Shown here: in pieces, positions 6,492 through 23,072 of the stretch
How positions within the stretch are numbered: position 1 is the stretch's first letter
How the letters are laid out: every line of letters begins with the position of its first letter
From: Methanothrix harundinacea 6Ac
GTDB lineage: Archaea > Halobacteriota > Methanosarcinia > Methanotrichales > Methanotrichaceae
Reading direction: 5' to 3'
Assembly: GCF_000235565.1 (NCBI RefSeq)
Contig: NC_017527.1
Location: forward strand, 1,178,001-1,242,000
Length of the DNA: 64,000 nucleotides
Notes under the pieces: model-generated
Database searches by the model: none
Seen by the model: only the letters and a program-made list of their open reading frames with translations
Told to the model about the DNA's origin: nothing
Translations under genes and position numbers: made by a program

Positions 6492-7406
6492 TTGAGGGTT
6501 CTTGTCACTGGAGGGGCCGGGTTCATCGGCTCAAACCTCGTGGAGGATCTGCTGGCCTCTGGCATGGATGTGGTGGTTCTGGACAATTTCACCACCGGAA
6601 GCCGCGAAAACCTGGAGGGGTTATCCGGGAACCTGAGGATCATAGAGGGGAGTTGCCTCGAACTGCAAAACCTCGATCTCAGCCCCCAAGCGATATACCA
6701 CCTCGGAATACCGTCATCTTCGCCGATGTACAAGAGGAAACCCCTTCTGGTGGGCGAGGCGATCAGCGGGATGATCGCCGTCCTGGAGCTGGCAAAAAAG
6801 ACCGGCGCGAGGGTCGTTTACGCCTCCACCTCCTCCCTATACAGCGGCCAGACCCCGCCCCACCGGGAGGAGATGGAGGTCTTCGTCACCGACTACTACA
6901 CCGAGGCCCGGTTTGCCATGGAGAGGATGGCGGAATTGTACGGGAAGCTCTTCGGCGTCAGGGCCTTAGGGATGAGGTTCTTCTCCGTCTACGGCCCCCA
7001 TGAGGCGGCCAAAAAGGAGTATGCGAACATCGTCACCCAGTTCCTCTGGGAGATGATGGCGGGGAGGGTCCCCGTGATCTACGGGGACGGCTCTCAAACC
7101 CGCGACTTCGTCTACGTCAGGGACGTCGTCTCCGCCCTCCGGCTGGCCATGGCCTCGAACTGCACCGGGGCGCTGAACGTCGGCACCGGGAGAAGCTACA
7201 GCTTCAACGCCGTCGTCGAGATCCTGGCAGGGGAGATGGGGCTTGATATCAGGGCTGAACATGTCGATAACCCCATCAAAAACTACGTCCGGGACACCCT
7301 GGCCGATACCACAAAGGCAGAAGAGGTTCTGGGATTTCGGGCCAGGCACACCCTGGAAGAGGGGATAAGAGAGATCATCGATTACTATGGCGGAGGAAGC
7401 CGTTAG
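6492..7406 (+). CDS. NAD-dependent sugar-nucleotide epimerase/dehydratase
   Basis: Extended SDR of 304 residues resembling UDP-glucose 4-epimerases and related enzymes. It has the NAD loop TGGAGFIGSN, NFTTGSREN after strand 2, YASTSSLYSG at the Ser/Thr position, and RFFSVYGPHE plus YGDGSQTRDFVYVRDV in the substrate region. The usual YxxxK is not canonical: the Tyr lies in VTDYYTEARFAMERM, so the expected Lys position is Arg-like and the chemistry may differ. TTG 6492 follows GGAGGAG (6480-6486) and gives the normal N-terminus. The last 20 bases overlap the exporter permease gene, which indicates translational coupling. Confidence 0.8.
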   Translation: MRVLVTGGAGFIGSNLVEDLLASGMDVVVLDNFTTGSRENLEGLSGNLRIIEGSCLELQNLDLSPQAIYHLGIPSSSPMYKRKPLLVGEAISGMIAVLELAKKTGARVVYASTSSLYSGQTPPHREEMEVFVTDYYTEARFAMERMAELYGKLFGVRALGMRFFSVYGPHEAAKKEYANIVTQFLWEMMAGRVPVIYGDGSQTRDFVYVRDVVSALRLAMASNCTGALNVGTGRSYSFNAVVEILAGEMGLDIRAEHVDNPIKNYVRDTLADTTKAEEVLGFRARHTLEEGIREIIDYYGGGSR

Positions 7407-8247
7407 ACGAGGAGCATCCCGGTCTTTGCGCCACAGGGCAATAGACTTGGTTCGAGGTCAAAAATTGATCACGCCGACCCACCTTCGAGATATATATGGA
7501 TACCGAGATCTCATCCTGAGGCTTGCCTGGAGCGACTTCAAGCTCCGATACAAGAACTCGATCCTCGGGTTCTTCTGGTCGCTTCTGGAGCCCCTTCTGA
7601 TGCTCCTCGTCCTGTATGTAGTATTCAGCCATCTGATGAAGATCCAGGTGGAGCACTACCAGCTCTTCCTCCTCCTGGGGATCATCCTCTGGAACTTCCT
7701 CGACCGGGGGACTTCGATGGGGATATTCGGGATCGTCGGAAAGCCGGGCCTCGTCCAGAAGGTCTACTTCCCTCGGGACGTTCTGATCATCTCAGCCTGC
7801 GCCACGGCGCTGATGATGACCGCCCTCGAGTTCGTCGTCTTCGTCGCCTTCATGGCCGTCTTCGGGGTGGCGCCGACGGCGGCGGTCCTCTACTTCCCCC
7901 CAATATTCGCCCTCCTCTTCGTCCTCGTCTTCGGCCTCTCCCTCGCCCTCTCGGCCCTGAACGTCTACTTCCGGGACGTCCAGTTCATCTGGAGGGTGAT
8001 CCTCCAGGCGGGGTTCTTCGCGACCCCCATACTTTACCCGATAACTATATTTCCCGCAGATCTTCAGAGGCTGGTGATGGCAAACCCCATGGCCCGGATC
8101 ATCACCACCTCCCGGGACTCGGTCCTCTACGGGGCCGCTCCCGCCGCCGGCGACCTCGCCTACGTCGCCCTCGCGGCAGTAGTCATCCTCCTGGCAGGCT
8201 ACCTCGTCTTCGATCATTTCGAGCCGGGATTTGCGGAGGAGATCTAG
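7387..8247 (+). CDS. wzm: ABC-2 type polysaccharide exporter permease
   Basis: Integral membrane protein of 286 residues with an amphipathic N-terminus (HLRDIYGYRDLILRLAWSDF) followed by about six membrane segments. The segment RYKNSILGFFWSLLEPL is the signature of Wzm/TagG-type permeases. It should form a homodimeric channel that works with the ATPase encoded three bases downstream and moves lipid-linked polysaccharide out of the cytoplasm. It overlaps the preceding epimerase gene by 20 bases. Confidence 0.93.
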   Translation: MAEEAVRRGASRSLRHRAIDLVRGQKLITPTHLRDIYGYRDLILRLAWSDFKLRYKNSILGFFWSLLEPLLMLLVLYVVFSHLMKIQVEHYQLFLLLGIILWNFLDRGTSMGIFGIVGKPGLVQKVYFPRDVLIISACATALMMTALEFVVFVAFMAVFGVAPTAAVLYFPPIFALLFVLVFGLSLALSALNVYFRDVQFIWRVILQAGFFATPILYPITIFPADLQRLVMANPMARIITTSRDSVLYGAAPAAGDLAYVALAAVVILLAGYLVFDHFEPGFAEEI

Positions 8248-8249
8248 AG

Positions 8250-9542
8250 ATGGCGTCGGATCGGGCGGTGGAGGTGGAGGGGGTCTCGAAGACCTTCAGG
8301 ATACCCCACGAGAAGAGGGCTACGGTCTTTGAGACCCTGGCGGGGGCTCTGCGGAAGAACGAGTACGAGGTCTTCAACGTCCTGGAGGACGTCACCTTCT
8401 CGGTGACGGAAGGCGAGTGCGTCGGGATCATCGGCGACAACGGCTCCGGCAAGTCCACCCTCCTGAAGGTGATCGCCAACATCCTCCGCCCCACCAAAGG
8501 CAGGGTCGCGGTCCGGGGGAGGATGACCCCCTTCCTCGAGCTGGGGGTCGGCTTCCAGCCGGACCTCACCGTCCGGGAGAACGTCGGGATGTACGCCACC
8601 ATCATGGGCCTCTCCAACGGGATGATCCGCGATCGGATCGAAGACGTCATCAGCTTCGCGGGCCTGGGGAGGTTTGAGGACGCGAAGTTGAAGAACCTCT
8701 CCTCGGGGATGCAGGTCCGCCTCGCCTTCTCGACGGCGATCCAGACCGATCCCGACGTCCTCCTCGTCGATGAGGTCCTGGCCGTCGGGGACATGGAGTT
8801 TCAGCAGAAGTGCTTTGAGGTCTTCAAGAGGTACAGGAGGGAGGGGGTCACCATCCTCTTCGTCTCCCACGACCTCGGCTCCGTCCGGCGGTTCTGCGAC
8901 AAGGCCCTCCTCCTCAGCCACGGCAGGCAGGTCGCCTTCGGGGAGACGGGGGATATCATCGACCGGTACGTCTACGGCGGCGAGGGGCGCGGAGGAGCGG
9001 GAGAAGATGGGGCAGAGGAGGGTTTGGAGGAAAAAAGCAAAGTCGGGTCTGAGGAGTCAGAAGGTCCTCAAACGAAGCCTCGGAAGGTTCTCTTAGAGTG
9101 TTCTCAAGATAGTGGGCCTAGAAGGTGGGGAAACCACAAAATAGCGATAAAAGACGTCGCATTTTTTAATAAGTTTGGCTCAGTATCTTCCAGATTCAAT
9201 TCGTTCGATCCTATGAAGGTGAGAATATATTATGAAGTGAATGAGGCGGTAAGCGATCCAGTATTCGGGATAGGTCTTTATACTGCAGAGGGTCTCCATC
9301 TCTATGGGACAAATACCGCTCTTAAAGATCTCAAGTTTGATCGAATAGAGCGGGATGGATACATTGATCTTGAGATCGATAAGATACCGATGCTGGCGGG
9401 AAAATTTCTGCTGAGCCCAGCCATACAGAATCGAGATTATTCTATAACTTATGACTGGATCGACAAGTATTATTCCTTTGAGGTCATATCAACAGGAAGG
9501 GATGATGGGCTCTTTGAAGTGCCTTGTAAGTGGTTTGTTTAG
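8250..9542 (+). CDS. wzt: ABC polysaccharide exporter ATPase with C-terminal glycan-binding domain
   Basis: Protein of 430 residues. The ATPase domain has Walker A GDNGSGKST (~62-70), the signature NLSSGMQVRLAFS and Walker B LLVDEV. After a charged linker (~245-285), the C-terminal ~145 residues form a Wzt_C-like beta-sandwich. In bacterial O9a-type systems this domain recognises the finished, end-modified glycan. The DNA for the ATPase is GC-rich like the genes before it. From about 9000-9110, in the linker, the composition becomes AT-rich and stays so through the following genes. The gene is therefore a mosaic of a resident ATPase and an acquired recognition domain. It starts directly after wzm. 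Confidence 0.92.
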   Translation: MASDRAVEVEGVSKTFRIPHEKRATVFETLAGALRKNEYEVFNVLEDVTFSVTEGECVGIIGDNGSGKSTLLKVIANILRPTKGRVAVRGRMTPFLELGVGFQPDLTVRENVGMYATIMGLSNGMIRDRIEDVISFAGLGRFEDAKLKNLSSGMQVRLAFSTAIQTDPDVLLVDEVLAVGDMEFQQKCFEVFKRYRREGVTILFVSHDLGSVRRFCDKALLLSHGRQVAFGETGDIIDRYVYGGEGRGGAGEDGAEEGLEEKSKVGSEESEGPQTKPRKVLLECSQDSGPRRWGNHKIAIKDVAFFNKFGSVSSRFNSFDPMKVRIYYEVNEAVSDPVFGIGLYTAEGLHLYGTNTALKDLKFDRIERDGYIDLEIDKIPMLAGKFLLSPAIQNRDYSITYDWIDKYYSFEVISTGRDDGLFEVPCKWFV

Positions 9543-9569
9543 AATTCGTTGGCGAAGGGGTTGATAATA

Positions 9570-10955
9570 TTGAGCTATCCTGAAATAAAAAACGAGGATA
9601 TTGATGTTGCAGAGCTGATGCATAAGATACGAGATAGAGTACGAAAAAGGCGCGGAATAGATTCCTCGGCGGTAGGTATAGCTCAGATAAATTCAAGTTC
9701 GTCCGAAGCTCAATCCTTAGAAGACGAAATTCGAAGCGATCTTGATTACATAAATTCTAATCAGAATATACATAATGAAAACTATATTATCAGCTCTCAC
9801 AGAAGAATTATCGGTAAATTCCTTGTTGAGGGAAGAAGGCTTGTAAACGGAGAGGTACATAGATACGTCGATTCTGTTATTTCGAAACAAATTGAGCTAA
9901 ATTCCAGCTCAGCAAGAATTTTGAATCGACTCGTTGCGAGAATCGATAAAAATACACTTTCTAATATAGAAATAAAAAATAATTTATCACGCATTAGAGA
10001 AGATATTGGTCAAGATATATCGAGGCAGCAACATGAGATCAGAGCCGAGCTCGACGGCCAACTGGGACAGGTCAGGTCCGAATTTCGCGATGAGATCTCG
10101 AGGCAGCAACATGAGATCAGAGCCGAGCTCGACGGCCAGCTGGGACAGGTCAGGTTCGAATTTCGCGATGAGATCTCGAGGCAGCAACATGAGATCAGAG
10201 CCGAGCTCGACGGCCAGCTGGGACAGGTCAGGTCCGAATTTCGCGACGAGATCTCGAGGCAGCAACAGGAGATCAGAGCCGAGCTTGACGGCCAGCTGGG
10301 ACAGGTCAGGTCCGAATTTCGCGAAGAATTAAACCGAATATTGAATATGCTAGATTCTAAAGACAGTTCCTTATCAGCATGGTCAAAATTTTATAATAAT
10401 GAAATAACTGAAGATCTCTTAACATTGAATATAGATTATCATGAGAGGTTCATCTCCCTTATAAAGGAAATCGCTCAAAAGGCCGCAAACGGGATGGTTC
10501 CCAAGTTGCTTGAAGTAGGAGTCGGGACGGCCACAATGTCCATATATTTTTCGCGATATTCATTTGAGGTGGTTGGATTAGATAATGACCCAAATGTAGT
10601 TCGTAACGCTATAAAGGTCAATAAGGATTTGGGAGGGTATGCTAAGTTTATCCTGATGGACGCCTTTGATCTGAACATGTTTAAAGGGGATTATTTCGAT
10701 GTCGCCTTTTCTCAAGGGACTATGGAACATTTTAATGATGCAGAAATTATAGAAATGATCTCAAAGCAGCTTGAGGCTGCAAAATTTGTAATTTTTTCTG
10801 TCCCTTCAATATATTATCCGCACAAGGAGTTCGGAAATGAGCGGAAGATGAGCAAAGAGGATTGGGAGATGATCCTGAAGAAGGGTGATTTCAATATCAT
10901 AGGCCTCGATTATTATAAAGATAGTCAGCATATTGTGTGCGTTATTGGATCATAA
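9570..10955 (+). CDS. Coiled-coil protein with C-terminal SAM-dependent methyltransferase domain (possible chain-length ruler)
   Basis: About 461 residues from TTG 9570, which follows GGCGAAGGGG; TTG 9549 is an in-frame alternative. Residues ~1-130 are polar and helical. Residues ~150-253 are four near-identical 26-residue units of the type ISRQQHEIRAELDGQLGQ with the tail VRSEFRDE, predicted long coiled coil. The C-terminal ~190 residues are a class I methyltransferase with motif I LEVGVGTATM and a later FSQGTMEHFND. It lies directly behind wzm/wzt. In E. coli O9a the polymer-capping methyltransferase WbdD carries a coiled coil that sets glycan length, and the Wzt C-terminal domain reads the cap. 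A similar role is inferred here from context and architecture, not from sequence identity; the domain order is reversed compared with WbdD. Confidence 0.75.
   Translation: MSYPEIKNEDIDVAELMHKIRDRVRKRRGIDSSAVGIAQINSSSSEAQSLEDEIRSDLDYINSNQNIHNENYIISSHRRIIGKFLVEGRRLVNGEVHRYVDSVISKQIELNSSSARILNRLVARIDKNTLSNIEIKNNLSRIREDIGQDISRQQHEIRAELDGQLGQVRSEFRDEISRQQHEIRAELDGQLGQVRFEFRDEISRQQHEIRAELDGQLGQVRSEFRDEISRQQQEIRAELDGQLGQVRSEFREELNRILNMLDSKDSSLSAWSKFYNNEITEDLLTLNIDYHERFISLIKEIAQKAANGMVPKLLEVGVGTATMSIYFSRYSFEVVGLDNDPNVVRNAIKVNKDLGGYAKFILMDAFDLNMFKGDYFDVAFSQGTMEHFNDAEIIEMISKQLEAAKFVIFSVPSIYYPHKEFGNERKMSKEDWEMILKKGDFNIIGLDYYKDSQHIVCVIGS
10017..10328 (+). repeat. Four tandem 78-bp in-frame repeats inside the coiled-coil methyltransferase gene
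   Basis: Copies start at 10017, 10095, 10173 and 10251, each 78 bases (26 codons) with only a few base differences. Examples are CAA/CAG for the second Gln, TCC/TTC at the Ser position and a diverged last copy ending FREEL. The high DNA identity, not just protein identity, points to recent slippage or unequal exchange. Copy-number change keeps the frame and would alter coiled-coil length by about 26 residues per unit. Confidence 0.97.
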
Positions 10956-10969
10956 TGGGGGGTGAAAGA

Positions 10970-13351
10970 TTGAAAATAGGTGTAGACATGTTACCGCTCA
11001 AGACGGGTTCTTACACAAGAGGAATTGGTAAGTATACATTCAATTTATTTAGTGAAATAATTAGTATTGATACATATAATGACTATCATTTCTACAACGT
11101 TCCTGAAAAATTATGTGCTTATTTTAGAAGAGAGAATACAACAATTTTAGAGCGGGGTCCCACTGTGGATGATACTAAAATGCTAGACGTATTTATTATT
11201 ACAAGTTTAATGGAATTGGGAATAAAGAACGTCTTAAGACCATCTAATTTATTTTGTAAAACAGCAATTATGTTTTATGATTTGATACCAGTTATATTTT
11301 TTGAAGAATATCTCGACTCGGTATTAGAAGAGTTTCGTATCGAATATATTAGGAGATTATCTTTTATAAAAGAATTCGACATGATCTATGCGATCTCAGA
11401 AACTACAAAAAGAGATTTAATGGATTTACTGGAGATTCCTGAGGAAAAAATACGAGTAATATATGCAGGTTTAGATAAGAATTATTTAATTAGTCAATCT
11501 AGTACTGAAAAAGTACTAGATATCAAACACAAATATCGGATCAAAGATAGATTCGTTATGTCAACCGTGGGCTTAGATTTTAGGAAAAATATTTCCGGCA
11601 TCTTCAAAGCCTTTACAAAAATTCATTATGATTTAAGCTTAGTAGTTGTTTGTAAGCTAATGCCAGAAGAAGAAAGATCTTTAAGAGATATATGGTCCAA
11701 TTTAGAATTGCCACCAAATAAACTCATTTTGACTAATTATGTCCCAGTAGACGATTTGATTACACTATATGATGCAGCAGAAGTATTTTTATTTCCTTCG
11801 TTATATGAAGGGTTTGGACTTCCCGTTCTCGAGGCTATGTCAAGAGGATGTCCTGTTATCACCTCGAATATATCATCAATTCCTGAGGTTTGTGAGAATG
11901 CAGCTATCTATGTCGATCCTTATAAACCAGATGAGATCGCCAAAGCAATCGAATTAATATTAAATAAAAATAAACTTAAAACTAAATTAATAGTATTGGG
12001 TTCAAAACAATCAACGAAATTTGCCTGGAGTCGCGTGGCTTTAGAAGTACTTGAAGGGTTCGAAGCACTCAGTTGTAAGCCGCTACATTGTAGAAAACAT
12101 CCAAGATATAAATTGGCATATTTTACACCTCTAAACCCTCTTCGATCAGGAATATCTGATTATTCAGAAGATCTGCTTCCACGTTTGGGTAATTTTGTAG
12201 ATATAGATATATTTGTAGATACAGATTATCTGCCAGATAATAAAAATATTAAACAATTATTTAATATATATCCTTTCAATAAATTCGATGAAATGAATAA
12301 CGTCAGTCCATACGACTTATGTGTGTATCAAATTGGTAATTCAATATATCATAATTATATGTTGGATTATCTTAATAAATATCCCGGCATTTCCGTCCTT
12401 CACGATGTGACACTTTGTGGACTTATTTTGCCTGCATGTAGCAATAAAGGCGTTTTTGATAAAAATAAGTTTTTAGAATATGTATTTACTAGTTACGGAT
12501 ACAATAGATATTCTAAAATTAAAAACGATTTCGTAACAAACAATTCGTTAGATCCATACGAGAGGTATCCGCATGATCTCTCACTCAATTTTTCAAAGAT
12601 TATATTAGATCGGAGTATTTTAACACTTGTCCATAATAGCTTCGCTAAAGATTTCCTAAGTTCTCAATCAAGTTTTTCTAAAGTCTGGAAGATCAATATG
12701 GGATTCCATCTCGACGATTATGATGACGAATTTCGAAAAAGCATCAAACTAAAATTTAATCTAATTGATAAAGTAATAATATCTGCATTCGGTAGAATTA
12801 TTTTTACAAAAAGGATTCATGTATTATTATATGCAATATCAAGATTGATCAAAGATAAAAAAATATATGGCATCCATCTATATCTCGTGGGAGAACTATA
12901 TGATAACGTTAAGAGTCAAATAGAAACTATAATTAATGATGAAAATCTTGGAGATTTTGTGACGATTACAGGATATGTAGATGAAGAAGAATTTAATAAA
13001 TATTTAAAAATTACCGATATTTGTGTGAATCTGAGGTATCCATCGTCTGGTGAGACTTCGGCCACCTTGATAAAAACGCTTCGTTACGGTATCCCCGTAA
13101 TAACCACGAATTACGCTCAATATAAGGAGTACCCCGATAACTGCTGTTGGAAGGTAGACTTGGGCGATTATGAAGTTGAACTGCTATCTGAGTATCTCCT
13201 AGAGCTGGTTACCAATGAGGAAGCTAGAAAAATAATGAGCAAAAATGCGTATGAGTATGCCCGGGAAAATAATTCGATGGACCGGGTTGTTGGCCAATAT
13301 CTGAAGGCAATTGACTATGCAATAAAATATAAAAATATAATAGAGCGTTAG
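10970..13351 (+). CDS. Bifunctional protein with two GT4 glycosyltransferase domains
   Basis: About 793 residues holding two complete GT-B enzymes in series. Domain 1 (~1-375) starts KIGVDMLPLKTGSYTRGIGKY and has the EX7E motif in YEGFGLPVLEAMSRGCPVI. Domain 2 (~385-793) starts KLAYFTPLNPLRSGISDYSE and has SAFGRIIFTKRIHVLL plus a terminal donor-site region NLRYPSSGETSATLIKTL. Such fusions are common in polysaccharide clusters, where the two domains add consecutive sugars. TTG 10970 follows GGTGA; ATG 10955, which overlaps the preceding stop codon, is an alternative. The gene is strongly AT-rich with many ATA and AAA codons, unlike the rhamnose genes. Confidence 0.85.
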   Translation: MKIGVDMLPLKTGSYTRGIGKYTFNLFSEIISIDTYNDYHFYNVPEKLCAYFRRENTTILERGPTVDDTKMLDVFIITSLMELGIKNVLRPSNLFCKTAIMFYDLIPVIFFEEYLDSVLEEFRIEYIRRLSFIKEFDMIYAISETTKRDLMDLLEIPEEKIRVIYAGLDKNYLISQSSTEKVLDIKHKYRIKDRFVMSTVGLDFRKNISGIFKAFTKIHYDLSLVVVCKLMPEEERSLRDIWSNLELPPNKLILTNYVPVDDLITLYDAAEVFLFPSLYEGFGLPVLEAMSRGCPVITSNISSIPEVCENAAIYVDPYKPDEIAKAIELILNKNKLKTKLIVLGSKQSTKFAWSRVALEVLEGFEALSCKPLHCRKHPRYKLAYFTPLNPLRSGISDYSEDLLPRLGNFVDIDIFVDTDYLPDNKNIKQLFNIYPFNKFDEMNNVSPYDLCVYQIGNSIYHNYMLDYLNKYPGISVLHDVTLCGLILPACSNKGVFDKNKFLEYVFTSYGYNRYSKIKNDFVTNNSLDPYERYPHDLSLNFSKIILDRSILTLVHNSFAKDFLSSQSSFSKVWKINMGFHLDDYDDEFRKSIKLKFNLIDKVIISAFGRIIFTKRIHVLLYAISRLIKDKKIYGIHLYLVGELYDNVKSQIETIINDENLGDFVTITGYVDEEEFNKYLKITDICVNLRYPSSGETSATLIKTLRYGIPVITTNYAQYKEYPDNCCWKVDLGDYEVELLSEYLLELVTNEEARKIMSKNAYEYARENNSMDRVVGQYLKAIDYAIKYKNIIER

Positions 13352-13915: not shown

Positions 13916-14656
13916 ATGAATTTGGATTTATATGAAAGAATGTTTTCTTATGAGGAAGGTAATTGGTGGTACAAAGGCAGAAGAGAGCTTATAACCGACA
14001 TGATCCGCAGAGTTCATCCAGCTTCTTCGAAGGCAGCTTTAAGAATATTGGACGTGGGATGTGGTACAGGATTGAACTCCAAATCTTTTGAGCGATTTGG
14101 CCATGTAAGCGGCCTTGACATGTCGGAGGAGGCCCTTAAATTCTGCAAATTAAGGGGCAGGACCGACCTCATTAGAGGATCTGCTGACAGCCTTCCCGTT
14201 AAGGATGGTACTATTGATATCGTATGCGCCCTTGACGTTCTTGAGCATATCGAAGATGATTTTTCTGCCATGCAGGAACTTAATCGGGTTTTGAAGCCGG
14301 GTGGATTCTTGGTTCTGACAGTTCCTGCTTTTATGTTCCTTTGGAGCAGCCATGACGAGGTTTTGCATCATAAGAGGAGATATACTAGGAAAAATCTGTT
14401 ACAAAACCTGAAAATTTCTGGATTCACCATAAATAAAAGCACATATTGGAACTTCTTTCTCTTCCCGGCGGTGGCTTCTATAAGATTAATCAGGAAAAAA
14501 AAGTCCGCATCGGTGGTAAGAGACGATATTGCGGATCTCCATAATATTATAAATATATTTTTAATCATTATTTTAGCATTAGAGAATAAGCTCATTAGAC
14601 TAGGTATTTCGTTCCCTGTTGGAGTGAGCATTTTTTGTATATGCAAAAAAGCGTGA
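13916..14656 (+). CDS. Class I SAM-dependent methyltransferase
   Basis: Protein of 246 residues. Motif I is ILDVGCGTGLNS (~44-55), followed by the acidic strand-2 end SGLDMSEEAL, IDIVCALDVLEHIEDD at motif II/post-I, and the ELNRVLKPGGFLVLTVPA segment of UbiE-type enzymes. The opening MNLDLYERMFSYEEGNWWYKGRRE is typical of methyltransferases found in glycan clusters. The C-terminal ~60 residues are hydrophobic and could sit at the membrane. It may methylate a sugar or lipid intermediate; the substrate is unknown. Confidence 0.85.
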   Translation: MNLDLYERMFSYEEGNWWYKGRRELITDMIRRVHPASSKAALRILDVGCGTGLNSKSFERFGHVSGLDMSEEALKFCKLRGRTDLIRGSADSLPVKDGTIDIVCALDVLEHIEDDFSAMQELNRVLKPGGFLVLTVPAFMFLWSSHDEVLHHKRRYTRKNLLQNLKISGFTINKSTYWNFFLFPAVASIRLIRKKKSASVVRDDIADLHNIINIFLIIILALENKLIRLGISFPVGVSIFCICKKA

Positions 14657-14744: not shown

Positions 14745-16763
14745 ATGCAGGTTATGTCCTTAATAGATAGGATGTGCGGAGGCCAGAAGGCCACGTGGAG
14801 TTCAGCTTGGACGCCGCTGTTATGTGTAATCTTGTCCTGCTTTATTGTATATGGATTAGTCTGTAAGTTTTTGATATCATTACGTATACAATTTAATAGC
14901 GATACTGTATCTCCTGGTATTATGAGTTTAGAGATATGGAGACATAATAATTATTTGCTGAGAGACTTTTACCTTCCTATCAACACTCCATATCTATTTT
15001 CAGATTTATTGCCATTTCATCTATTCCCGCAGATCATATTTGATTTCAACCCCCGGTGTCTTAATATTATGTGTTATGTCATATTCATACTAATAATAAT
15101 TATATTTACATATATTATTTATAAGATAACATCTTCTTATGTCAATGCACTGTTTTTTGCTGCATTAATGTCTAACATGGCACCTTTATCTTTTGGGTAC
15201 TACGTTCATCCAGTATCTCATAATGGTACAATTTTATTTATAGGATTGTTTATATTATTGTTTCTTAGAATCGATGAATCCTATGTTGAATTAAAAACTA
15301 CTCCGGTTCTAATACCAGCCTTCATTCTGTTGAATGCTATCATATTTTCTGATTCCATCATTATTGCGTGGTTTGTAGTACCAATAACGATTTATTATAT
15401 TCTAATGTATAAAAACAAAAATTCTACATTAAACATCATAATAATTTTAATGAATGTTTCAATTATTTTGTCGTATTATCTAAAGAAATATTTTATGTTA
15501 CATTACATTTCGATGCCTGTTCAGATTAGAGATCTAAATACAATTCTATATGTAAATATACCTTTATACGTGGAAGGAATGGCACAACTATTAGGTTTGA
15601 GCACTGATTTCAATATATTAAATATAATAAATATTTTAGTCATTTTATATATAATTCTCCATTCCAGCAAATTTTTATTAATGAACTCGCAAAAACCACC
15701 TGTGTTTTTCATGAGTATATATCTCATTGTATCTTCCGCAATTGTTTTTTTCGCATATGTTAGTTCCACGCTCTGTGTTGATATATTCACTACAAGATAC
15801 TTAATATTTACTCCAATATCTATTTTTCTGCTTATATCTTTAGCATATGATAAACTAGAATATCTGCATACAGTAGGATTATTAATACTAATAATGTTTT
15901 CAGCTTTAGCCAATTATGCTGCTCTGGAGACTAACTCAGATCCAAATATTCATAATTATGATCTAATAAATTATTTTAAAGAAAACAATTTGACTTACGG
16001 GTTAGGTGGATATTGGGATGCAAATATTATTTCTTATCTGTCCAGCGAATCAGTAATTATAAGGCCTGTAACAGCTCTCAACGGTGACATCGTCCCTTTT
16101 AGATGGGTCGCATCCGAACGCTGGTTTAAGAAGGAACCAGAAAATATAGATAGATATTTTATAATAGTAAAAGAAAACAAAACACTTTTATTAAATAATA
16201 ATGACGTAGAGAAGTCATTTAGAAAATATAAGCCTCCATCTGAAACACATATGTTCGGAGGATATATAATATATGTTTTTAATAATCAAATTCCATATAA
16301 GGGATTTTTAGATAATAATTTAAATTATATTAATTATAAAGACTCGTTGCTAATTCAAGATGGTGTCGGTTCTTCAGTGGACATAAAACAGCTTAACTCA
16401 ACGATATTTTATAGTAATAAAACTCTAAATAATCCCGGTTATTTGGTTTATGGTCCATATATCAGCTTGCCCCCCGGTAATTATACGATAGAATACATAG
16501 TCAAGGCAGAAAACATTTCTGATTCAGAAAAAAAGATAGCTACAATAGATATATTTAGTACATATATTAATGAAGATTCAAGAGTGGCAGTTGATGCAGA
16601 AAGGGATATTTATTTATATGACTTAAATAATAGTGATTTTCAATCTATTAACCTCGGATTTAGTATAGAGGACTACAATGAATTTCGCCTCATCGAATTT
16701 AGAGTATTTCAACATGGCATCGCAGATCTATATGTTCATAGTATTAATATAAATAAAACTTAA
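14745..16763 (+). CDS. Large polytopic membrane protein, probable GT-C-type glycosyltransferase
   Basis: Protein of 672 residues. The first ~410 hold roughly ten membrane helices starting near residue 27; the last ~250 are soluble and lie on the extracellular side if topology is like PMT/ArnT. There is no clear family motif, but an acidic segment after the first helix (IQFNSDTVSPGIMSLEIWRH) sits where GT-C enzymes carry their catalytic Asp/Glu. Its neighbours are a possible dolichyl-phosphate-sugar flippase and a dolichyl-phosphate sugar synthase. I infer that it transfers a lipid-phosphate-linked sugar to the glycan or a protein outside the cell. Very AT-rich. Confidence 0.65.
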   Translation: MQVMSLIDRMCGGQKATWSSAWTPLLCVILSCFIVYGLVCKFLISLRIQFNSDTVSPGIMSLEIWRHNNYLLRDFYLPINTPYLFSDLLPFHLFPQIIFDFNPRCLNIMCYVIFILIIIIFTYIIYKITSSYVNALFFAALMSNMAPLSFGYYVHPVSHNGTILFIGLFILLFLRIDESYVELKTTPVLIPAFILLNAIIFSDSIIIAWFVVPITIYYILMYKNKNSTLNIIIILMNVSIILSYYLKKYFMLHYISMPVQIRDLNTILYVNIPLYVEGMAQLLGLSTDFNILNIINILVILYIILHSSKFLLMNSQKPPVFFMSIYLIVSSAIVFFAYVSSTLCVDIFTTRYLIFTPISIFLLISLAYDKLEYLHTVGLLILIMFSALANYAALETNSDPNIHNYDLINYFKENNLTYGLGGYWDANIISYLSSESVIIRPVTALNGDIVPFRWVASERWFKKEPENIDRYFIIVKENKTLLLNNNDVEKSFRKYKPPSETHMFGGYIIYVFNNQIPYKGFLDNNLNYINYKDSLLIQDGVGSSVDIKQLNSTIFYSNKTLNNPGYLVYGPYISLPPGNYTIEYIVKAENISDSEKKIATIDIFSTYINEDSRVAVDAERDIYLYDLNNSDFQSINLGFSIEDYNEFRLIEFRVFQHGIADLYVHSININKT

Positions 16764-16805: not shown

Positions 16806-17525
16806 ATGAGTACAACCAAAATATGCGATGAAACCTCAGTCGGAATCCATATGAATTCGATAATCATACCCGCCTATAACGAGGAATCCCGAATTACGGC
16901 AGTCCTTCTTCACTTGTCTGAAGAATTTCCCGGACAAGAGATTATAGTAGTTTGCGATGGGGTAGATGGTACAAAGGATATTGTTGAGAACCTATCAATA
17001 AAGAATCCAAATATTCAAATCCTAAATTTTAAAGAAAAGCTTGGGAAAGGCGGAGCAATAATCGAGGGGTTTAGAGCTGCGAACGGCGAAAAAATCGGAT
17101 TTATCGATGCGGACGAATCTGTAAATGCAGACGAATTTAAGCTTATGTTTGACTTTGATGCGGAAATCGACGGAGTAATTGCGTCGAGGAGGCTAAAAAC
17201 TTCAAAAATATTAGTTAAACAACCGATTAAGAGGAGAATAGCAAGTAAATGCTTCAATATTTTTGTTAGAATTCTCTTTGGGCTGCCTTTCAAAGATACT
17301 CAGTGTGGAGCCAAGGTTTTCAAACGTGAGGCCATCTTAGATATAATAAACGATTTGGAAACCGGGGGGTTCGAGATAGATGTTGAGATTCTATGGAGGC
17401 TGAAAAATAATGGATATATAATAATAGAATATCCGATAACATGGAAGCACTCGGAAGGGTCAAAATTCAATTTAAATCAATCAACGAGCATGTTAACTTC
17501 TCTATTAAAAATGAGATTTAAATAA
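16806..17525 (+). CDS. Glycosyltransferase family 2, dolichyl-phosphate hexose synthase type
   Basis: GT-A fold protein, 239 residues from ATG 16806 or 224 from ATG 16851. The later start begins SIIIPAYNEESRI as the family does, and a TATA-like TTTATA at 16792-16797 would place transcription start after 16806. Motifs are the nucleotide-binding VVCDGVDGTKDI, the metal-binding FIDADES, and KDTQCGAKVFKREA, characteristic of DPM1/ALG5-like enzymes. There is no C-terminal membrane anchor. The product should be a dolichyl-phosphate-linked hexose used by the membrane protein encoded upstream. It ends just before a bidirectional terminator. Confidence 0.85.
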   Translation: MSTTKICDETSVGIHMNSIIIPAYNEESRITAVLLHLSEEFPGQEIIVVCDGVDGTKDIVENLSIKNPNIQILNFKEKLGKGGAIIEGFRAANGEKIGFIDADESVNADEFKLMFDFDAEIDGVIASRRLKTSKILVKQPIKRRIASKCFNIFVRILFGLPFKDTQCGAKVFKREAILDIINDLETGGFEIDVEILWRLKNNGYIIIEYPITWKHSEGSKFNLNQSTSMLTSLLKMRFK

Positions 17526-17575: not shown

Positions 17576-18268
17576 TTAAGAATATTTTTTGTACCAATCG
17601 CCCGAAACCGGCAAATCACCACCAAGCCCATAGATAATTATCTTATCAGGAACAGCATCGTTGTTATAGTCCAAATACCACCCCTGATTAGAAGGCCTGA
17701 ACACCCCGATAGTGTCTTTACCATTTCCGTTCCAATCGCCCACCACAGGCAAATCGCCGGAGATTCCATAGGTGATTATCTGGTCAGGAATGGCATCGTT
17801 GTTGTGATCCAGATACCACTGCTGATTGGACGGCCTGAAAACACCAATAGTGTCCTTACCATCTCCATTCCAATCGCCCGCAACTGCCTGATCACCATTA
17901 AGGCCGTAGGTAATTGTGGCGTCTGGAATCGCGTCATTGTTATAGTCCAGATACCACCACTGATTGGACGGCCTGAATACACCAATTGTGTCCTTACCAT
18001 CTCCATTCCAATCGCCCGCAACTGCCTGATCACCAGTAAGTCCGTAGGTGATTACCTTGTCAGGAATAGCATCGTTGTTGTAGTCCAGATACCATCCACG
18101 ATTGGACGGCCTGAAAACACCAATTGTGTCCTTACCATCTCCATTCCAATCGCCTGCAAGTGGCTTATCCCCATTGAGACCGTAGCTGATAATCGCGTCA
18201 GGAACAGCATCGTTGTTGTAATCCAGATACCATCCCTGATTAGAGGGTCTGAAGACCCCAATGGTGTC
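17576..18268 (-). repeat. Five 138-bp tandem repeats encoding FG-GAP-like units
   Basis: Counting from the stop codon, units occupy 17576-17716 (with stop), 17717-17854, 17855-17992, 17993-18130 and 18131-18268. Each encodes 46 residues beginning DTIGVFRPSN and ending GDWNGDGK; the last ends in GDWYKKYS. DNA identity between units is high, as expected for active expansion or conversion. Confidence 0.95.
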
Positions 18269-20197
18269 CTCCCCCTTCCTCCCAAAGTCAACGGCAGCGA
18301 TGCCGATGGGCCCGGTGAAGGATAGGCCTGCGCCACCTGGAGACCCTTCTCCAGCCGCAGCTCCAAGTTCGAGGTCCTCAGGTGGCATTGGGTCGTCCGA
18401 ATGATCATCCATGGTTCCTGGGTTCAGCTCCTCAGGGGTCACGTTGCTTTCTCCTCCGATATAGGCGTCGTTGTCGCTGCCAGACCAGTCCCAGGACGGC
18501 ATAGATACGGATGCGTAACCTGACGAGGTTGCCCTGGCCAAAATAGATGCATCCTTAGAGATATCGAGGCTGCAGGAGGCAAGGACTTCGACGTCGTCGT
18601 TCGGCCCCAGAATTGGCCAGTAGGTTTCGGTATCGTAGCGCTTCGGATCGTAGATTATATCGTAGTTGAACTTCAGGCCGAAAAGGTTCGCCACCTGGTT
18701 TGCTACAGTGTTCGAAAGCTGACGTTCTCCTAAGACGAAAAGTCCGCCCCCTTCTCCTGAGGCGAGCCAGTCGATGTACCCGATCGCCATCCTCTCATTA
18801 TCTTGCAGATAAATCGCATCATCTGAGGGCCAGCTACCGTCCCCAGAACCAATAACACGCCCGCGACCGACGAACTCTTTTATAGCGGCAAGCTCGGAGG
18901 TGCTGAAGGAGTTCGTGGGGTTAGAGATTATAACCACATCGTAGCAGTTCAGCATATTCGAGGTTACCGGGGTTTCCGTGGTGCTCTGGACGAAGTACCC
19001 ATTGCCTGCGAGGATGTTTCCCCACTCGTCATAGCCACTGGAGAGCTGGAAGTCATACATCGGAACGTGTCCCTCGTAGAAGAGGACACTCGCCGCCCTA
19101 CTGGGCTGGTGAGCGATCGTCTCGTCTTCAATGCGCACTTCATTCCATTTTATCCTGAACCAGCCGCTCTCTCCCCAACCAGTTCCCCAGGAGTTCTTGC
19201 ATATCAAATACCAGCCATTTGTGGCATCATAGCCCCAGCCAACTATGACTACAAAATGTCCACCTTCGAAGGTGGCGCCTGTGGTCTTTTTGTATATTCC
19301 ACCGCTATATCCCCAGAAGTCGCTGTATACTTCCATGTAAGTTGCGACCGGACCGCAGCACGTTATCTCCTCTTTCAACGCGTCGAGGGGGGCGTCATTG
19401 ATAGTGCCTCCAGGGCCGTCACCGACCCAGCACCAGTCCGTGATGTAGTACCTCCTTGACTCTCGATCTGGGCAGCTGCCGCGGCACGGCGCGGTGTCGC
19501 TGGCCAGATAGGGGTAGCAACTCTCGTCGACCGTCCCCTCACATAACATCCAGTCGGAGGTGCTGCTCAAATACCAGCCGCTGCAATCGCCCGGAGAGCA
19601 GGAGAGGATCTCTTGTTCTGAGAGGTCGGGCTGGAGGTTGGGGTTGCCCGCAGCGATCTTCATTCGGGACTCCAAAGCGCCGCAGACGGCAAAGGCCCAG
19701 CAAGACCCGCATGGGTTCTGGTTTCTGATCGGGGTCGTCCAGTCAAAGCCTCCTGCATTTCTCCAATCGAAGGAATTCGGGAAGGTCCCTCCCGGCGATT
19801 CTAGGTCTACCTCCGATCTTGGTGTGGTCTCATTTTGTGCGGTCTCATTTCCGTCGGTCTCAGAAAGGCCTCCCAAGAGCCTCCGTCTATCTTCAGGCGG
19901 CAGCAAAAATATGGGGTTCAAACCGGCGGTCCAATTGGCACCACTCTCTTCAATCGATCTTTGAATATCCTCCACCTCTGCAATTCGCTCGGGATAGCTC
20001 TCGATCACCTTCTCCCTCTCCTCTGGGGAGAGGCTCAAGAGAAACTCCTCGATGGCAGCCCAGTCACCCCCGGCCGCCTCCACTGCCTCTCGCATTCCCG
20101 ACATCTCCGAACCATCGGCAGCCGATCCGGCCGGCAAGAGAAACGCCGATAGCAGAAGCATGATCAATGCCGTCATTCCATTTCGATTCATCCTCAT
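17576..20197 (-). CDS. Secreted papain-family (C1A) cysteine protease with C-terminal FG-GAP/VCBS-like repeats
   Basis: Protein of 873 residues. A signal peptide (~1-26) is followed by a propeptide-like helical region with GGDWAAIEEF and SYPERIAEVE. The papain domain (~140-355) has oxyanion Gln160, catalytic Cys166 in NPCGSCWAF, His314 in GGHFVVIVGWG and Asn335 in CKNSWG, so it should be active. Next is a ~200-residue domain (VLFYEGH, VVIISNP, GRGRVIGSGDG) resembling a glutamine-amidotransferase-like DUF4350/GIFT fold. The end is five 46-residue repeats of the DTIGVFRPSN / GDWNGDGK type, FG-GAP-like with possible calcium loops. It is exported and probably attached to or retained at the cell surface. 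A paralogue with the same layout lies directly upstream. Confidence 0.9.
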   Translation of the reverse strand: MRMNRNGMTALIMLLLSAFLLPAGSAADGSEMSGMREAVEAAGGDWAAIEEFLLSLSPEEREKVIESYPERIAEVEDIQRSIEESGANWTAGLNPIFLLPPEDRRRLLGGLSETDGNETAQNETTPRSEVDLESPGGTFPNSFDWRNAGGFDWTTPIRNQNPCGSCWAFAVCGALESRMKIAAGNPNLQPDLSEQEILSCSPGDCSGWYLSSTSDWMLCEGTVDESCYPYLASDTAPCRGSCPDRESRRYYITDWCWVGDGPGGTINDAPLDALKEEITCCGPVATYMEVYSDFWGYSGGIYKKTTGATFEGGHFVVIVGWGYDATNGWYLICKNSWGTGWGESGWFRIKWNEVRIEDETIAHQPSRAASVLFYEGHVPMYDFQLSSGYDEWGNILAGNGYFVQSTTETPVTSNMLNCYDVVIISNPTNSFSTSELAAIKEFVGRGRVIGSGDGSWPSDDAIYLQDNERMAIGYIDWLASGEGGGLFVLGERQLSNTVANQVANLFGLKFNYDIIYDPKRYDTETYWPILGPNDDVEVLASCSLDISKDASILARATSSGYASVSMPSWDWSGSDNDAYIGGESNVTPEELNPGTMDDHSDDPMPPEDLELGAAAGEGSPGGAGLSFTGPIGIAAVDFGRKGEDTIGVFRPSNQGWYLDYNNDAVPDAIISYGLNGDKPLAGDWNGDGKDTIGVFRPSNRGWYLDYNNDAIPDKVITYGLTGDQAVAGDWNGDGKDTIGVFRPSNQWWYLDYNNDAIPDATITYGLNGDQAVAGDWNGDGKDTIGVFRPSNQQWYLDHNNDAIPDQIITYGISGDLPVVGDWNGNGKDTIGVFRPSNQGWYLDYNNDAVPDKIIIYGLGGDLPVSGDWYKKYS

Positions 20198-20405: not shown

Positions 20406-21092
20406 CTATCTCTTGTACCAATCGCCCACAATAGCTTGATCACCTGTTAGCCCATAGAATATGATCAGGTCCGGAATCGCATCGTTGTTGTAGTCCAGAT
20501 ACCATCCCCGGTTGGAGGGCCTAAAAACACCTATCGTGTCCTTGCCATCTCCATTCCAGTCGCCTACAACTGGCACGTCTCCAGTCAGTCCGTAGACGAT
20601 TATCTGGTCAGGAACAGCATCGTTGTTGTAGTCCAGATACCATCCCCGATTGGAAGGCCTGAACACACCTATTGTGTCCTTACCATCACCGTTCCAATCG
20701 CCGGCAACTGCCAAATCACCGTTCAGTCCATATACGATCATTTGATCGGGAACAGCATCGTTGTTGTAATCCAGATACCAACCCTGATTAGAGGGCCTGA
20801 AAACGCCTATTGTGTCCTTACCATCACCGTTCCAATCGCCTGCAACTGCTTGGTCACCGTTCAAGCCGTACGGAATGAAAAAGTCAGGAATCGCATCGTT
20901 GTTGTAATCCAGATACCAACCCTGATTAGAAGGCCTGAACACACCTATTGTGTCCTTACCGTCTCCATCCCAGTCCCCAGCAATTGCTTGGTCACCATTC
21001 AAGCCGTACGGAATGATAAAGTCAGGAACAGCATCGTTGTCGTAGTCCAGATACCACCACTGATTAGAGGGTCTGAATACTCCTATCGTGTC
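20406..21092 (-). repeat. Five 138-bp tandem repeats, second copy of the FG-GAP-like array
   Basis: Units run 20406-20540 (short last unit plus stop), 20541-20678, 20679-20816, 20817-20954 and 20955-21092. They share the DTIGVFRPSN / LDYNNDA / GDWNGDGK scheme with the array at 17576-18268. The two arrays look more alike than the protease domains do. Confidence 0.95.
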
Positions 21093-23072
21093 CTCCCCCT
21101 TCCTCCCGAAGTCGATCGCCGCAATCACGATCGGCCCGGTGAAGGAGAGCCCCGCCATGGGGACAGGCTCGCTGGAGGCATCCAGCTCTTCATCCTCGTC
21201 AGGGGTGACGGCCGGATCGGCCAGCTCCCCTCCGGGCGGGACCTCGCCGTCGGCGGGCATGGGGACTACATCGGGCGGCAGGACCTCGTCGGCCATCACC
21301 GAGAGGGGCGTCTCTTCGGGGTTGAGGGCGGCCTCGACATCGGCCTCCTGGGGCCGAACCTCTGGATCAGCGCCGCCGGCCGCGGTGACGTACCCCGATG
21401 GGGTCGTCCTCGCCAGGGCGAAGGCGTCCTTGGAGATTCTGAGGCTGGAGGCCTCTATCACCAGGATGTCCTCCTTCGGCCCCAGGATGGCGTTGGTCAC
21501 CGCCCCGTCGTAGCGGAGGGGGTCAGATACCGTGTCCGCATTGAAGTGGAGGCCGAAGAGGTCTCCGACCTGGTTGATGACGTCGTTCTCGGCCAGGGGC
21601 GCGGGGCCATCGGCCGGGCCCATCGGCGCGATCGGCGGGAGCCAGTCGACGCCGTCGCCGCCCAGGAGGAGGAGGCCGCCTCCGTTGCCGCTGGCGAGCC
21701 AGTCGACGTACTGGACCGCCGCCTTGACGTTATCCTGCTGGTATATGACCGCGTTCTCGAAGAGGTCGCCGTCCCCGGCGGCTATCACGCGGCCGCGGCC
21801 GACGAACTCCTTGATCGCCGCCAGCTCATCGGCGGTGAAGGCGGCCCCGGGGTTAGCTATCACCACGACGTCGTAGCACTCGAGGAGCTCCGCCGTCAGG
21901 TTCGCCTCGTCGCTGCTGTGGACGAGGTAGCCGTTCCCGGCGAGCCTGTTGCCCCACTCCGAGTAGTTTCCCAGGAGGGCGTATACGGGTCCGTGCCCCT
22001 CGTAGAAGAGGACCTTCCCGTCGATCCTCGGCTGGTAGGCGACCGCCTCGTAGCCGATGAGCGAGTCGCCCATCTTTATCCTGAACCAGCCGGAGTCGCC
22101 CCAGGCGGCGCCCCAGGAGTTCTTGCAGATCCAGTAGTCGGTGCTGTTATTCGTCCCCCAGCCGAGGATGTCCACCCACTGGCTCCCGACCAGGGCTCCC
22201 GCAGCGTGCTCGTAGATATCGTCGTCGTAGAGGTAGAAGTCCTCGTAGACCGCCATCTTAGACGAGACGGGGCCGCCGAAGAGGACCTCCTGCTGGATCC
22301 TGGGGACGTCGATCACATCCGGCTCCCCGGAGACCCAACACCACCCCTCGATCTTGTACTTCCGGGCGTCCCGGTCAAAGCAGCTCTCGGTGCAGGGGAC
22401 GGTGTCAAGCCCCCGGTACCGGAAGCAGGCGTCGTCGACGGTCCCCTGGCAGAGGAGCCAGTCGGCGGTTAGGTTGCTCGACCCGCTGCTGCAGTTCCCC
22501 GGTCCGCAGGAGAGGAGGTACTGCTCCGAGAGGTCGGGGCGGAGGTTGGGGTTGTTGGCCGCAAGCTTCATCCGCGCCTCCACCGCCCCCAGGGCGGCAA
22601 AGGCCCACCCCGACCCGCAGTTCCCCTGATCCTTTATCGGGGTCATCCAGCTGTCCCCGCTGACGTTCCTCCAGTCCCATTCTCCAGGGACGGCGTCCGT
22701 CGATGGCCCGCCTCCGGGGAGGATCGTCAGAACCTCCACCGGGAAGTCGGCCGCGCCCAGACCGGGCCGCAGCTCCGGCGGCAGGATCGATACCGGGTTC
22801 AGCCCCGCCTCCCAGCTCGCGCCTGCCTCCTCGATCGCCTGCCTCACCCTCACCAGCTCGGCGATCCGCTCCGGATACGTCGCGATGACCAGGGCTCTAT
22901 CCTCCGGCGAGAGGGTCGCCAGCATCTCCTCGATGGCGGCCCAGTCCCCGCCGGCCGCCAGTACCGCACCTTTCATCTCTTCGAGTTCCGGCTCCTCGGC
23001 CGCCGCGGCGGCTGGAGAAAAGGCCAGAAACGAGATGAAGATGGCAACAGCCAATACAGCTATCTCTCTCAT
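20406..23072 (-). CDS. Secreted papain-like paralogue lacking catalytic Cys and His (pseudoenzyme) with FG-GAP-like repeats
   Basis: Protein of 888 residues with the same order as its neighbour: signal peptide (~1-25), propeptide with GGDWAAIEEM, papain fold, GATase-like domain, Pro/Glu-rich linker (~600-660) and five 46-residue repeats. The active-site loop reads DQGNCGSGWAF: the catalytic Cys is Gly155 (codon GGG). The His position aligns with Gln298 (VGSQWVDILGWG), while Asn318 in CKNSWG and the disulfide cysteines remain. The reading frame is intact, so the fold seems kept while proteolysis is lost. It may bind peptides, inhibit or chaperone the active paralogue, or serve as an adhesin. 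It is GC-richer than the active copy in the catalytic domain. Confidence 0.88.
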   Translation of the reverse strand: MREIAVLAVAIFISFLAFSPAAAAAEEPELEEMKGAVLAAGGDWAAIEEMLATLSPEDRALVIATYPERIAELVRVRQAIEEAGASWEAGLNPVSILPPELRPGLGAADFPVEVLTILPGGGPSTDAVPGEWDWRNVSGDSWMTPIKDQGNCGSGWAFAALGAVEARMKLAANNPNLRPDLSEQYLLSCGPGNCSSGSSNLTADWLLCQGTVDDACFRYRGLDTVPCTESCFDRDARKYKIEGWCWVSGEPDVIDVPRIQQEVLFGGPVSSKMAVYEDFYLYDDDIYEHAAGALVGSQWVDILGWGTNNSTDYWICKNSWGAAWGDSGWFRIKMGDSLIGYEAVAYQPRIDGKVLFYEGHGPVYALLGNYSEWGNRLAGNGYLVHSSDEANLTAELLECYDVVVIANPGAAFTADELAAIKEFVGRGRVIAAGDGDLFENAVIYQQDNVKAAVQYVDWLASGNGGGLLLLGGDGVDWLPPIAPMGPADGPAPLAENDVINQVGDLFGLHFNADTVSDPLRYDGAVTNAILGPKEDILVIEASSLRISKDAFALARTTPSGYVTAAGGADPEVRPQEADVEAALNPEETPLSVMADEVLPPDVVPMPADGEVPPGGELADPAVTPDEDEELDASSEPVPMAGLSFTGPIVIAAIDFGRKGEDTIGVFRPSNQWWYLDYDNDAVPDFIIPYGLNGDQAIAGDWDGDGKDTIGVFRPSNQGWYLDYNNDAIPDFFIPYGLNGDQAVAGDWNGDGKDTIGVFRPSNQGWYLDYNNDAVPDQMIVYGLNGDLAVAGDWNGDGKDTIGVFRPSNRGWYLDYNNDAVPDQIIVYGLTGDVPVVGDWNGDGKDTIGVFRPSNRGWYLDYNNDAIPDLIIFYGLTGDQAIVGDWYKR

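Follow-up and report, generated by a model that had tools for sequence, protein, structure and literature searches.

In the open-licence papers found, rulers that set the length of surface glycans are characterised only in bacteria. In WbdD of Escherichia coli, a methyltransferase in O8 and a methyltransferase-kinase in O9a, the enzymatic part is followed by a long, trimeric coiled coil and by a C-terminal region that binds the membrane and the polymerase. The cap added by WbdD stops growth of the glycan and licenses its export (PMC3482155, PMC5082667), and insertions into the coil or truncations of it shift the modal O-antigen length, as described in the portion of a review that deals with this system (PMC5082667). 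In Klebsiella, the coiled-coil proteins WbbB (O12), ORF7 (O4) and ORF6 (O7) likewise separate the terminator from the polymerase in ABC-transporter pathways; here the terminating enzyme is N-terminal, the O12 and O7 proteins also contain glycosyltransferases, the caps are Kdo or methyl-phosphate, and the sections of the paper on these proteins mention no tandem DNA repeats (PMC11231755). A coiled-coil methyltransferase of E. coli O101/O162 has been proposed as a WbdD-like ruler, with the methyltransferase at the N-terminus and the coil at the C-terminus, and its loss affects a second repeat-unit type (PMC13168486). Geobacillus WsaE, which works with Wzm/Wzt on an S-layer glycan, provides an example of a methyl-capped surface glycan in a cell without outer membrane; its methyltransferase is fused to two glycosyltransferase domains, and no coil is described in the relevant part of the source (PMC2943079). 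An archaeal glycan ruler was not found in the open-licence literature, in agreement with an earlier note on the DNA studied here, which knew of none.

We analysed a stretch of 64,000 nucleotides from Methanothrix harundinacea 6Ac (the window), in which the earlier note had proposed an analogue of WbdD with an expandable coil. The features of the locus are collected in Table 1.

Table 1. Features of the glycan export locus and of the coiled-coil methyltransferase gene (positions in the window)
Feature	Positions	Strand	Evidence
wzm, membrane subunit of the ABC transporter for glycan export	7387..8247	+	Pfam ABC2_membrane 6e-17
wzt, nucleotide-binding domain	8250..8981	+	Pfam ABC_tran 3.7e-24; 97.5% identity to sister genome G012; GC3 0.94
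wzt, C-terminal glycan-reading domain (Wzt_C)	9105..9542	+	PF14524 1.2e-30; 52% identity to G012; GC3 0.41
Coiled-coil methyltransferase protein, proposed chain terminator and ruler	9570..10955	+	Open frame, 461 aa
Conserved N-terminal domain, residues 1-111, proposed docking end	9570..9902	+	Alignments of 8 and 28 homologues
Single long predicted helix, residues 81-257	9810..10340	+	AlphaFold model; hydrophobic period 3.69
78-bp repeat unit 1	10017..10094	+	TRF; unit comparison
78-bp repeat unit 2	10095..10172	+	TRF; unit comparison
78-bp repeat unit 3	10173..10250	+	TRF; unit comparison
78-bp repeat unit 4, most diverged of the four	10251..10328	+	TRF; unit comparison
Class I SAM-dependent methyltransferase domain, residues 281-461	10410..10955	+	Pfam Methyltransf_25; motifs; fold
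Twin-domain GT4 glycosyltransferase, proposed polymerase partner	10937..13351	+	Pfam Glycos_transf_1 5e-44, two stretches

The frame of the coil gene begins with TTG at 9570, and an alternative in-frame TTG start lies at 9549. The methyltransferase that the earlier note saw fused to the coil is recognised by Pfam (Methyltransf_25 at residues 314-399, E 1.2e-10), and in a structure search its fold resembled many class I methyltransferases, including that of WbdD (4azt). No kinase domain was present among the Pfam and NCBIfam matches of the protein, as in O8 WbdD and in contrast to the O9a protein. The N-terminal domain is without Pfam match; in the alignments its invariant positions are Y, SHR, GE, RY, D, Q and N. 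A moderate hydrophobic moment was computed for this domain and, together with the adjoining GT4 gene, whose start (10937) overlaps the end of the coil gene (10955), gives a hint, only suggestive, of a dock at the membrane or the polymerase. With the methyltransferase at the C-terminus (residues 281-461), the order of putative dock, coil and enzyme is the reverse of that in WbdD, as had been claimed; moreover, the N-terminal dock is unlike the C-terminal one of WbdD, and the archaeal coil is built of repeats.

Homology to WbdD was not found: phmmer returned no WbdD chain among PDB sequence matches at E up to 1, and 4azt, which came thirteenth of over 1,000 methyltransferase-like structure matches, shares only the generic class I fold. 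The archaeal protein is best read as an analogue of chain terminators that carry a coiled coil, for example WbdD of E. coli O8. Common to both are a methyltransferase on a long coil, adjoining genes for Wzm and a glycan-reading Wzt, and a separate multi-domain polymerase of GT4 type, the archaeal one being putative. Both in the window and in the family described below, the gene lies in a wzm/wzt locus in which Wzt ends in a glycan-reading domain, and a terminator-type enzyme domain, from which we infer chain termination, is placed at the far end of a helix of 177 residues in the window protein.

The AlphaFold model consists of a poorly defined N-terminal part with helices, one unbroken helix over residues 81-257 (pLDDT about 90 over 131-230, lower after 240) and a class I methyltransferase fold; as a monomer built from 28 sequences with a pTM of 0.42, it bears on helix and domain fold and not on assembly. 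The hydrophobic residues of the coil recur with a period of 3.69 residues (power 22, compared to a maximum of 9.9 in 500 shuffles). Coiled-coil periodicity was also detected in 48 of 60 homologues, and the long helix was predicted, in monomer models, for two members with differing repeats, one of them the window protein. Within the repeat unit, 23% of the residues are large hydrophobic and 42% charged, and I1, I8, L12, L16, V19 and F23 lie within 35 degrees of one face. Thus, both the predicted helix and the hydrophobic period speak for the helical coiled coil on which the ruler idea was built.

TRF detected a single array in the gene (10020-10324, period 78, 3.9 copies, 97% matches). In codon register, four in-frame units fill positions 10017-10328, inside the predicted helix, and encode ISRQQHEIRAELDGQLGQVRSEFRDE. 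Any two units differ at 2-6 of 78 bases and at three residues at most, which confirms the four near-identical repeats reported before. A chance or low-complexity repeat is ruled out by the reading frame, the 97% identity and the location of all 47 arrays of the family between two conserved domains. Copying from elsewhere in the genome was rejected as well: the 2.57-Mb genome contains no second copy of the unit, and of 50 family genomes searched for its source only one gave a match, which was weak and 34 bases long. With a GC3 of 0.71, the repeats stand out as richer in GC than the surrounding low-GC gene (0.28-0.41). Simple short slippage, in the single steps that the earlier note had envisaged, is a less likely cause of change in units of 78 bp than unequal recombination or misalignment during replication.

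The coil gene is located directly downstream of wzm and wzt (8250-9542 as a whole), where the domain matches in Table 1 support the position originally described; wzm also matches a galactan permease model of NCBIfam (1.2e-22), below the cut-off of that model. The order wzm, wzt with Wzt_C, coil-methyltransferase gene and GT4 gene is a recurring one. A wzm gene was found in the flank of 39 of 44 loci; of the other five, four are truncated at a contig end and one has wzt. In 32 of 43 cases the gene immediately upstream encodes Wzt_C, and in 39 the domain is encoded no more than 5 kb away; the next gene downstream matches Glycos_transf_1 (GT4-type) in 29 of 37 loci. At the genome level, 39 of the 41 genomes that have the family also encode Wzt_C, versus 27 of the 352 that lack it (Fisher p 1.6e-33, a value that overstates independence because the genomes are related, yet twenty genera carry the family). 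One member with about six 15-residue coil repeats (L018:9979-11451, genome G015) has neither wzm nor wzt in the 20 kb around it, its genome yielded no Wzt_C at the threshold used, and it was possibly displaced.

Using the N-terminal domain as query, the family was found in 41 of 393 sampled Halobacteriota genomes, with 44 loci on genome contigs. The members belong to Methanothrix, Methanosarcina, Methanoculleus, Methanoregula, Methanoperedens, Methanohalophilus and other genera. The distribution is patchy (4 of 35 genomes in the Methanoculleus genus, 2 of 9 in Methanothrix, the genus of the window), as is usual for surface-glycan loci. An existing name for the family was not found. A scan of contigs from 84,980 species, which used a single motif and could therefore miss distant bacterial relatives, returned archaeal records and one labelled Nanosynbacter that is probably misbinned. 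The N-terminal domain was absent from three bacterial relatives of the commoner methyltransferase, and it was not found on plasmids with either the window protein or an approximate consensus as query.

The N-terminal domain is common to all members and the C-terminal methyltransferase is of three kinds, which would be expected were a single dock to serve several cap chemistries. The solved methyltransferase 3dli is a sequence relative (1.3e-91) of the commoner type; it comprises a methyltransferase domain only and is described only as such, and the methyltransferase of the window is of another type. This latter type recurs in four closest relatives (L045, L074, L062, L103), all with intact SAM-binding motifs, so that the enzyme residues whose loss would have weakened the proposal are kept. 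Methyltransferase decay was not seen in the closest relatives; degenerate copies are found only in L057 and L008/L064, which have no clear coil and a short Wzt away from the gene. In L057 and L064 this Wzt has no glycan-reading domain, a coincidence that is only suggestive. A group of Methanosarcina members (L051, L055, L093, L095, L104, L107-L110) is much longer, at about 1100 aa, with extra N-terminal sequence, which in L051 includes another methyltransferase domain; several of them have 10-residue Gly/Ser/Asn-rich linker repeats between coil and methyltransferase.

Compared between species (the collections contain one genome per species), the coil segment has between 36 and 215 residues (SD 37), whereas the methyltransferase part has 223 (SD 9). 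Forty pairs, overlapping in membership, had 80% identity or more at both ends; coil length differs in 33 of them and methyltransferase length in one. Alignments revealed whole-unit steps of 22 residues from L048 to L089, 33 from L070 to L023 and 38 from L053 to L091, and the variable repeat number that the earlier note had looked for in relatives is thereby established. Arrays are found in 35 of 63 members versus 8 of 344 neighbouring ORFs; all 47 lie between the N-terminal domain and the methyltransferase, none in the flanking domains, and the period is divisible by three in 46. Relatives have units of 7, 11 (Methanosarcina and Methanohalophilus), 15 (G015, L030 and Methanoperedens) or 19 residues (L091), and 26-residue units occur in the window protein and, with another sequence, in G004. 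Three members (L024, L031, L034) stop inside the coil at a contig end, which fits repeats that break assemblies. Relatives in other methanogens have thus gained and lost repeats many times. In L062, which has the same methyltransferase type as the window, only 36 residues separate the domains, and in one Methanosarcina group the arrays are found outside the coil, in a Gly/Ser/Asn-rich linker. The unit lengths favour near-integral helix turns when all are counted, and with distinct lengths only the result is borderline (p 0.054). Indels between close pairs did not significantly preserve helix phase and had no clear length preference.

In the sister genome G012, the sugar genes, wzm and the nucleotide-binding domain of Wzt are 88-98% identical to the window, whereas Wzt_C is only 52% identical and the coil protein carries the other methyltransferase kind. 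Within wzt, GC3 is 0.94 over the nucleotide-binding domain and only 0.41 over Wzt_C, with a sharp drop at 8982-9105, and from there through a GT2 gene ending at 17525 it remains within 0.26-0.52, the repeats (0.71) excepted. The interval 8982-9105 is likely a recombination breakpoint of a serotype-like cassette that would reach to about 17500. Considering the GC3 break and the identity pattern in G012, glycan reader, coil protein and glycosyltransferases were most likely swapped together, and such a joint exchange is expected if the reader must recognise the cap added by the coil protein. Between wzt and the coil gene, G012 encodes a protein of 695 aa (L019:7900-9987) that matches a rhamnosidase-like glycoside hydrolase (Bac_rhamnosid6H 2e-8). 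The low-GC cassette of the window also contains a 672-aa membrane-protein-like ORF (14745-16763) without any Pfam match, a candidate ligase or transferase of the finished glycan. Beyond it, on the minus strand, two adjoining papain-like protease paralogues (17576-20197 and 20406-23072) both end in 46-residue VCBS/FG-GAP-like repeats encoded by 138-bp tandem arrays (17594-18270 and 20461-21094). The first retains CGSCWAF; the second has CGSGWAF and changes around the usual active-site His and looks like a catalytically dead copy.

With moderate confidence, we propose that the coil protein acts as chain terminator and coil-length ruler of an archaeal ABC-transporter-dependent surface glycan system. 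In this scheme, drawn by analogy with WbdD and the Klebsiella terminators, the protein would attach through its N-terminal domain to the assembly machinery near the membrane, i.e. the GT4 polymerase and/or Wzm-Wzt, and a rod-like, probably oligomeric coil would keep the methyltransferase at a distance of up to about 265 A from this dock (177 residues at 1.5 A). A lipid-linked glycan would be methylated at its free end only after growing long enough to reach the enzyme, and coil length would therefore set the modal chain length. The methyl cap would halt growth and, on recognition by Wzt_C, lead to export; plain methyl is the simplest cap, as in O8 WbdD, given that the protein matched no kinase model. 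Gain or loss of tandem units could then shift chain length in steps, which here would be about 39 A per unit of 26 residues, with the four units accounting for about 156 A of the 265-A rod. Of the original ruler reading, variable length, predicted coil, intact methyltransferase and reversed order have thus stood, and simple slippage is the less likely mode of change.

Length lability is expected for a tunable ruler, but also for a neutral spacer. The protein might cap the glycan while its coil serves as a permissive spacer or scaffold, the exact length of which has little effect on the glycan; repeats would then accumulate in the coil because helical linkers tolerate in-frame duplications. Most close relatives do differ in coil length, and some coils are short. 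The 36-residue spacer of L062, the arrays in the disordered linker of one Methanosarcina group, the lack of significant phase preservation in indels and the borderline result for distinct unit lengths were all counted against a ruler, the length of which one might expect to stay constant if stabilising selection on it were strong. We nevertheless regard a pure spacer as unlikely, if still a serious alternative, because arrays are enriched in the coil segment far above neighbouring genes and, in several lineages with different units, are recent and homogeneous. Moreover, nearly all members keep a long periodic helix, and coil-length changes in WbdD alter chain length according to the corresponding part of the review (PMC5082667).

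Less probable is a methyltransferase that decorates internal residues or mainly scaffolds glycosyltransferases, without chain termination. The coiled-coil methyltransferase of E. coli O101, the loss of which removes a whole repeat-unit type (PMC13168486), would be a model for this, and the second methyltransferase gene in the cassette (13916-14656) implies that methyl groups may be common in the glycan. Such a role is difficult to reconcile with the tight linkage to Wzt_C, the reader of the chain end in bacterial prototypes, and with the replacement of Wzt_C together with the coil protein. We consider it very improbable that the long helix lies flat on the membrane like an amphipathic apolipoprotein instead of forming a stand-off rod. 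Pfam Apolipoprotein does match over the coil (E 6.3e-8), far below cut-off (33 versus 90 bits), and the 11-residue periodicity is similar to that of apolipoproteins; however, other generic coil families match about as weakly, and the composition of the unit and its six core residues on one face describe a narrow stripe typical of coiled coils.

Going beyond the chain-terminating ruler itself, it is possible, and we suggest it tentatively, that the archaeal proteins constitute a ruler family with a non-Pfam dock, reversed polarity and a rod length set by repeat copy number, in which surface glycan length would be a heritable stepwise trait, exchanged in a serotype-like cassette whose breakpoint falls within wzt. 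Should this hold, methanogens and Methanoperedens would measure by the same principle as the bacterial systems, using a protein of reversed domain order, and the natural coil-length variants among close relatives would be an experiment already at hand on how a rod gauges the length of a polymer. A genetic handle would also be gained on the surface glycans of archaea that are central to methane cycling, whose surface sugars may influence aggregation and virus attachment.
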